Source: Alphaproteobacteria bacterium (GTDB lineage: Bacteria > Pseudomonadota > Alphaproteobacteria > UBA8366). Taken from it: DNA of 64,000 nucleotides. How positions within the stretch are numbered: position 1 is the first letter of the stretch; the number at the start of each line of letters is the position of its first letter. The stretch spans positions 96,099 to 160,098 of the forward strand of contig JAJFJD010000019.1 in the NCBI GenBank assembly GCA_021774335.1. Reading direction: 5' to 3'. Shown here one piece after another: positions 27,564 through 28,346 of this stretch. The notes under the pieces were generated by a model. It searched no databases and had not been told where the DNA came from. It saw nothing but the letters and a program-made list of their open reading frames with translations. The translations under genes were made by a program, and so were the position numbers.

Positions 27564-28346
27564 GTGTCCGCGGAAACGATCAGAGTTTTTTGGCGCCCTG
27601 GGTGAACAAGCTGCCTTCGTACGAAAGAGTTTCTTTCGTCTCAAAACATCGACCATGAGTCAGTAAACGTTGAAGGCAACGCGGCGGGCATGGACCTGCT
27701 GTCGAGCCTCGGCGCGACCTCCGTTCCCGTCGTCTCCAAGGGCGACGAATTCGTCTATGCCCAATCGCTGCGTGATGTCGCTGAATTCCTGGACATCGAT
27801 GCGTCGGTTGGACCCACGCTGTCCATGCCGGAACTGGTCGACAAGCTCGATTTGGTGCTGGCGACGGCGCAGCGGCTGTGGCGGCAACTGCCCGACGAGG
27901 CATTGGCCGAAAAACTGCCAAACCGCGACCGCAGTTACCGCGTCCTTGGACACCACATCTTCCGAATTCCGGAAGCCTTCCTCGAAGTGACCGAGGGGGC
28001 GACTCTCACTTATGACATGCTGACGACGGCGCCGCCGGACGCCATGACGACTGCCGAAGACATTGCCGCCTATGGCGACGATGTCCGGAAGCGGGTCAAA
28101 AAGTGGTGGCTGATGGTCGAGGATGTCACCGGTGAAGCGAAGGTGCCGACCTATTTTGGCGACCAGCCGATCCACGATGTGTTCGAGCGAACGGCCTGGC
28201 ATGCGGCCCAACACGTACGCCAGACCGCGATGATCCTTGAGCAACGGGGCATCACGCCGGATGCACCGCTGTCGGCGGATGACCTCGACGGCTTACCGGT
28301 TCCGGACAAGGTCTGGGACGACGAGCCGGACGCCGCTGCGACTTAG
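27564..28346 (+). CDS. Candidate selenoprotein: glutaredoxin-like domain with in-frame TGA at the first redox Cys, fused to a DinB-like domain
   Basis: AGGAGA RBS, GTG 27564. Translation VSAETIRVFWRPG[TGA]TSCLRTKEFLSSQNIDHESVNVEGNAAGMDLLSSLGATSVPVVSKGDEFVYAQ..., then ..HHIFRIPEAFL..ERTAWHAAQHVRQTAMIL. The only in-frame stop before 28344 is TGA 27603-27605. The ORF track starts downstream at 27690. Confidence 0.65.
27621..27639 (+). promoter_or_regulatory. Candidate bacterial SECIS hairpin
   Basis: ACGAAAG-AGTTT-CTTTCGT: perfect 7-bp stem, 5-nt loop with G at loop position 2, loop begins 22 nt after the TGA. Confidence 0.55.

Follow-up and report, generated by a model that had tools for sequence, protein, structure and literature searches.

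An in-frame UGA followed by a putative SECIS element in an alphaproteobacterial gene for a glutaredoxin–DinB fusion

Introduction

A 64,000-nt stretch of an alphaproteobacterial genome (the window; contig JAJFJD010000019.1, positions 96,099 to 160,098) contains a gene whose reading frame is interrupted by a TGA, with an RNA hairpin a short distance downstream. The question raised by this locus is whether the hairpin is a bacterial SECIS element (bSECIS) that causes the UGA to be read as selenocysteine (Sec), as a first-pass annotation of the window had proposed. We put the probability at about 95% that the hairpin is a genuine bacterial SECIS and that Sec delivered by SelB at the UGA gives a UxxC glutaredoxin–DinB fusion protein, with SelB binding, Sec insertion and redox or transferase activity all predicted from sequence. 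Support for recoding driven by a bSECIS comes from what was observed here: the frame and its hairpin, the restriction of such hairpins to UGA genes as against cysteine (Cys) orthologues, the codon bias of the stem, covariation in a shifted form of the element (position B), the Sec machinery of the genome, and the co-occurrence of selA.

The in-frame UGA and its gene

The gene spans 27564–28346 on the plus strand, from a GTG start to a TAG stop, and encodes 260 amino acids, with a glutaredoxin domain at the N-terminus fused to a DinB_2 domain. On the same strand, a likely ribosome-binding site, AGGAG (27553–27557), is recognizable in the sequence 6 nt before the GTG, and a promoter-like TTGCCG-16-TATACT (27511–27538) is a consensus match only. 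The TGA (27603–27605, plus strand) lies in frame 13 codons after the GTG at 27564, and the frame is open to the TAG at 28346. It replaces the first Cys of a C-T-S-C motif; read as Sec, it would be U14 in the motif G-U-T-S-C. Orthologues without Sec have a Cys codon (TGC or TGT) at this site, the UGA aligns with that Cys, and homology runs on past the UGA, as expected of a selenoprotein.

From a standard gene caller one would expect a 218-aa ORF beginning at ATG 27690, in keeping with a TGA that truly terminates translation or that arose by sequencing error or as a lesion in a pseudogene. However, the TGA recurs at the homologous codon, in an otherwise open frame, in 39 genomes, no TAA or TAG was seen there, the glutaredoxin active site is encoded before ATG 27690, and selA co-occurs with the UGA form (see below). 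A stop, error or lesion is accordingly very improbable. The comparison confirms as a selenoprotein gene one that standard gene calling would shorten to an internal ATG, leaving the active site outside the called ORF.

Geometry and energy of the hairpin

In the bSECIS model, the hairpin lies in the coding sequence right after the UGA, with 16–37 nt between the UGA and the apical loop, an upper stem of 4–16 bp, an apical loop of 3–9 nt with G in loop position 1 or 2 (usually G[G/U]), and a minimum free energy no higher than −7.5 kcal/mol (PMC13188914). The window hairpin, ACGAAAG-AGUUU-CUUUCGU at 27621–27639 (plus strand; position A), has the perfect 7-bp stem and 5-nt loop that the first-pass annotation described. 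That annotation had the hairpin starting 22 nt after the TGA; the stem in fact begins at 15 nt, and it is the loop AGUUU that lies at 22 nt (GUU at 23 nt). Both of these distances to the loop fall within the 16–37 nt of the model, which leaves intact the claim of consensus spacing. RNAfold, suggested there as a check, prefers an 8-bp stem with loop GUU, and both this fold and the 7-bp stem with loop AGUUU have the stem and loop of the model. Its energy is −8.8 kcal/mol when folded within the 57 nt after the UGA and −7.4 kcal/mol for the 21-nt hairpin alone, which places it on the threshold.

In its 8-bp stem and its loop GUU closed by A-U, corresponding to N1-G-[G/U]-N-N2, the window hairpin resembles the model, including the E. 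coli fdhF element (Fig. 2A of PMC13188914), as it does in its spacing of 22–23 nt and its place in the coding sequence right after the UGA; its energy, about −7.4 to −8.8 kcal/mol, straddles the limit of −7.5. It departs from the model through its relatives, some of which have the hairpin at 36–37 nt, the model's edge. The window stem also has no bulge, unlike that of E. coli fdhF, with its bulged U. As a bSECIS element, the window hairpin is unremarkable.

Taken by itself, without its relatives, the hairpin is weak, suggestive evidence. The 76-nt segment folds no better than its shuffles (z = −1.0), and 11 of 300 synonymous recodings of the window gene (about 4%) contain a conforming hairpin of equal stability. 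Across the two strands of the window there are 25 hairpins with a stem of at least 7 bp, a loop of 3–6 nt and G in loop position 1 or 2, or, by arithmetic from that count, about 0.4% per 22-nt slot. Neither the Rfam model SECIS_1 (RF00031) nor a permissive Rfam scan found a useful match in 27400–28000; the SECIS_1 result is uninformative, because this model found no match in any control genome either.

UGA genes compared with cysteine orthologues

Family members were drawn from 44 genomes of the same order, 385 genomes of the class and a public contig collection. With duplicates removed, the set came to 42 UGA genes and 16 Cys genes, each of which was tested against a simplified form of the bSECIS constraints in PMC13188914. 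Of the 42 UGA genes, all from Alphaproteobacteria, 41 contained a conforming hairpin with an energy of −7.4 kcal/mol or lower, vs. one of the 16 Cys orthologues. Median hairpin energies were −8.3 and −3.1 kcal/mol, respectively (Mann-Whitney p = 1.6e-7), and a codon-recoding null combined over 18 representatives gave p = 2e-15, against 0.18 for the Cys set; as the rows are related, these p values are indicative. The UGA exception (L078) has only a weak hairpin of −5.7 kcal/mol. The Cys exception (L070) has one of −11.3 kcal/mol in a GC-rich gene; 18 of 300 recodings of that gene are equally good, and its hairpin is a chance occurrence. Full pairing at site A or B, the two sites described below, was found in none of the 16 Cys genes.

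Chance as the source of the window hairpin was rejected; it is untenable because of this comparison of orthologues (41/42 vs. 1/16).

A more specific alternative is that the hairpin has no RNA role and is a by-product of a conserved peptide, K-E-F-L-S-S, together with codon usage. The stem does lie wholly inside the codons of that peptide, and the recodings of the window gene yield the hairpin at the rate of about 4% given above. Yet the Cys orthologues keep K-E-F-L while coding it mostly as AAG-GAG-TTC-CTG, and only 2–4 of 8 pairs form at their position-A site. The same hairpin in Cys orthologues is the result that the first-pass annotation had named as telling against its proposal; what these genes have is the peptide, in other codons and with no matching stem. 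Conversely, AAA-GAG-TTT-CTT-TCG is invariant in all 13 position-A genes, the remainder of which uses CTT for 12% of its Leu codons, TTT for 26% of its Phe codons and AAA for 34% of its Lys codons. The stem codons of window-type genes are thus fixed to disfavoured synonyms, and UGA genes that lack the position-A hairpin carry another one 14 nt downstream. We consider a by-product of peptide and codon usage to be highly unlikely.

Two putative SECIS positions in one family

The other 29 UGA genes have no window-type stem. Their hairpin is instead TCG[G/A]TCC-GUG-GGATCGA or a sequence close to it, and its loop GUG lies 36–37 nt after the UGA, 14 nt further downstream than position A (position B; L027–L032, L034–L038, L055–L059, L061, L063–L064, L066–L068, L073–L075, L077–L079 and L081). 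In the position-B stem, 91% of cells are paired and 12 cells are changed on both sides; this pairing was matched by none of 500 shuffles, and all slid registers were far worse. Of the compensatory changes that the first-pass annotation had called for, none are visible in the position-A stem, whose inner pairs are invariant; the position-B stem of the sister genes covaries. Position-A genes form 1–4 of 7 pairs at site B, and position-B genes have no full window-type stem, so that the two positions are mutually exclusive within the family. Both loops present G-U, as GUU at position A and GUG at position B.

In protein trees, neither SECIS position forms one clade. A tree test of a single origin of position A gave p-AU = 0.08, a value that does not firmly exclude one origin.

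We think it fairly probable that these genes represent an uncatalogued family of glutaredoxin–DinB UxxC selenoproteins in which the SECIS has moved by 14 nt (loop at 22–23 vs. 36–37 nt, by lineage). Each position would be encoded through its own choice of amino acids and codons, and in one genome a position has apparently passed from one paralogue to another when a block of ~60 nt underwent local gene conversion. Two SECIS positions in one family constitute a natural experiment on the distance from the UGA over which SelB can work, and also bear on how an RNA signal within a coding sequence shapes the protein it encodes.

Paralogues and possible gene conversion

The genome that contains the window has a second copy of the gene on contig 60 (L043; its paralogue is L018), also with a UGA and a window-type hairpin. 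The two share 49% of residues overall. Counted in steps of 10 codons, their DNA identity is mostly 40–80%, but it rises to 97–100% in the 20 codons that surround the UGA and SECIS. For the paralogues of a sister species (L019 and L042), the same block is 90–93% identical. Orthologues from other genera are 77–87% identical in this block, and since the paralogues exceed that value, local gene conversion of the recoding signal is suggested by these sequences. The identity extends outside the stem, further than selection acting only on the RNA would account for.

Another genome of the set (G346) carries two copies, on contigs 24 and 25: one, L058, has the UGA, and the other has no internal stop.

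Selenocysteine machinery and other selenoproteins

As required for a selenoprotein gene, the same genome has selA, selB, selC and selD. The selA and selB genes adjoin each other on contig 4 (178312–181590), and tRNA-Sec (selC; 75.7 bits) lies downstream of them at 182778–182868. ARAGORN found no tRNA-Sec in the 64-kb window, this gene being elsewhere in the genome. One SelD is itself a predicted selenoprotein with the motif HGGGU-GCK (contig 38; in-frame TGA at L085:1532–1534) and a SECIS loop GUC 17 nt after its UGA; another SelD gene, on contig 62, has no internal TGA. A selenoprotein gene of the UGSC family (NF041046, over its cut-off) on contig 4 (L084:13721–14262), within about 5 kb of selC, has its UGA at 14021 and a SECIS loop UGUAU at 18 nt. 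The G-U of the glutaredoxin–DinB loops is present in both of these loops.

Among genomes with the UGA form, selA scored over its cut-off in 38 of 39, the exception being a genome that is 77% complete. It was found in three of the 13 genomes in which the gene is free of internal stops (11 of these copies were read, all Cys), and in none of the 17 genomes tested from two sister families of the same order without the glutaredoxin–DinB gene.

A changed code or readthrough could instead place Cys, Trp or another residue at the UGA, and the Cys found there in orthologues does lead one to expect some thiol-like residue. The selA frame of the same genome, however, itself ends with TGA, and therefore the code is not changed globally; moreover, tRNA-Sec, SelA, SelB and SelD are all present, and a SECIS-like hairpin follows each such UGA examined. 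Insertion of a residue other than Sec is the least likely of the alternatives considered here, with a probability close to nil.

Under the preferred reading, Sec insertion, a small G-U loop would sit at the tip of an mRNA stem that closely follows the UGA being decoded by the ribosome, and SelB carrying Sec-tRNA-Sec would bind to this loop and deliver selenocysteine at the UGA. The product would be a glutaredoxin–DinB fusion with the active site U-x-x-C instead of C-x-x-C, and its Sec-Cys pair might act as a fast thiol/disulfide (selenylsulfide) redox centre serving the DinB-fold, thiol-S-transferase-like domain.

Domains, structure and predicted role of the protein

Residues 7–64 (27582–27755, plus strand) match the glutaredoxin domain PF00462 with 37.3 bits (gathering cut-off 22.9), nearest to NrdH-type and Uxx-star glutaredoxins, and residues 95–220 (27846–28223, plus strand) match DinB_2, PF12867, with 29.2 bits (cut-off 24.8). 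AlphaFold2 gave a confident two-domain model (mean pLDDT 94.5). In Foldseek, the glutaredoxin half matched 3zit, a thioredoxin-like protein from Bacillus, with a TM to target of 0.87, and the DinB half matched DinB/YfiT proteins (6iz2, 3di5 and 2p1a; 0.75–0.83). H131, H213 and H217 (H213-xxx-H217) are invariant in 44 sequences and are likely metal-binding histidines.

With Sec-glutaredoxins (UxxC, PF00462) and the Uxx-star families (NF041212, NF041211 and NF041114) the protein shares the glutaredoxin fold and, as predicted here, Sec as the first residue of UxxC. The NF041212 model scores in 37 of 44 family members, but the window protein, at 25.1 bits, is far under the curated NCBIfam cut-off of 66 and so falls outside that family. 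It further differs in its C-terminal DinB_2 domain, which is in no entry of the 119-family inventory. It is like the DinB/YfiT and bacillithiol/mycothiol S-transferase-like superfamily (PF12867) in its four-helix DinB fold and three invariant His, and unlike it in that DinB_2 is fused to a (seleno)glutaredoxin; transferase activity is predicted.

The glutaredoxin–DinB family is not in the 2026 inventory of 119 prokaryotic selenoprotein families, and the window protein scores below the cut-off of every NCBIfam model. A search of full-text literature under open licences for DinB together with selenoproteins found nothing relevant, an absence that is not proof, and we describe the family as new to the catalogues checked (the 2026 inventory and NCBIfam). 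Outside the class, a phylum-wide profile search gave, among the matches listed, weak ones confined to the glutaredoxin end of the model. The selenoproteome would gain a Sec-glutaredoxin fused to a DinB thiol-transferase-like fold, present in many Alphaproteobacteria.

By inference, the protein would most likely act as a metal-dependent thiol transferase or reductase coupled to its redoxin domain. Thioredoxin reductase is the enzyme that reduces NrdH proteins. In Caballeronia catudaia (L053), the gene that follows the Cys gene on the same strand reads, by eye, as a thioredoxin reductase, which hints at what may reduce the redoxin domain. Around 24 orthologues, no conserved neighbours were found except in one pair of near relatives. 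Copies annotated as plasmid-borne sit among catabolic genes.
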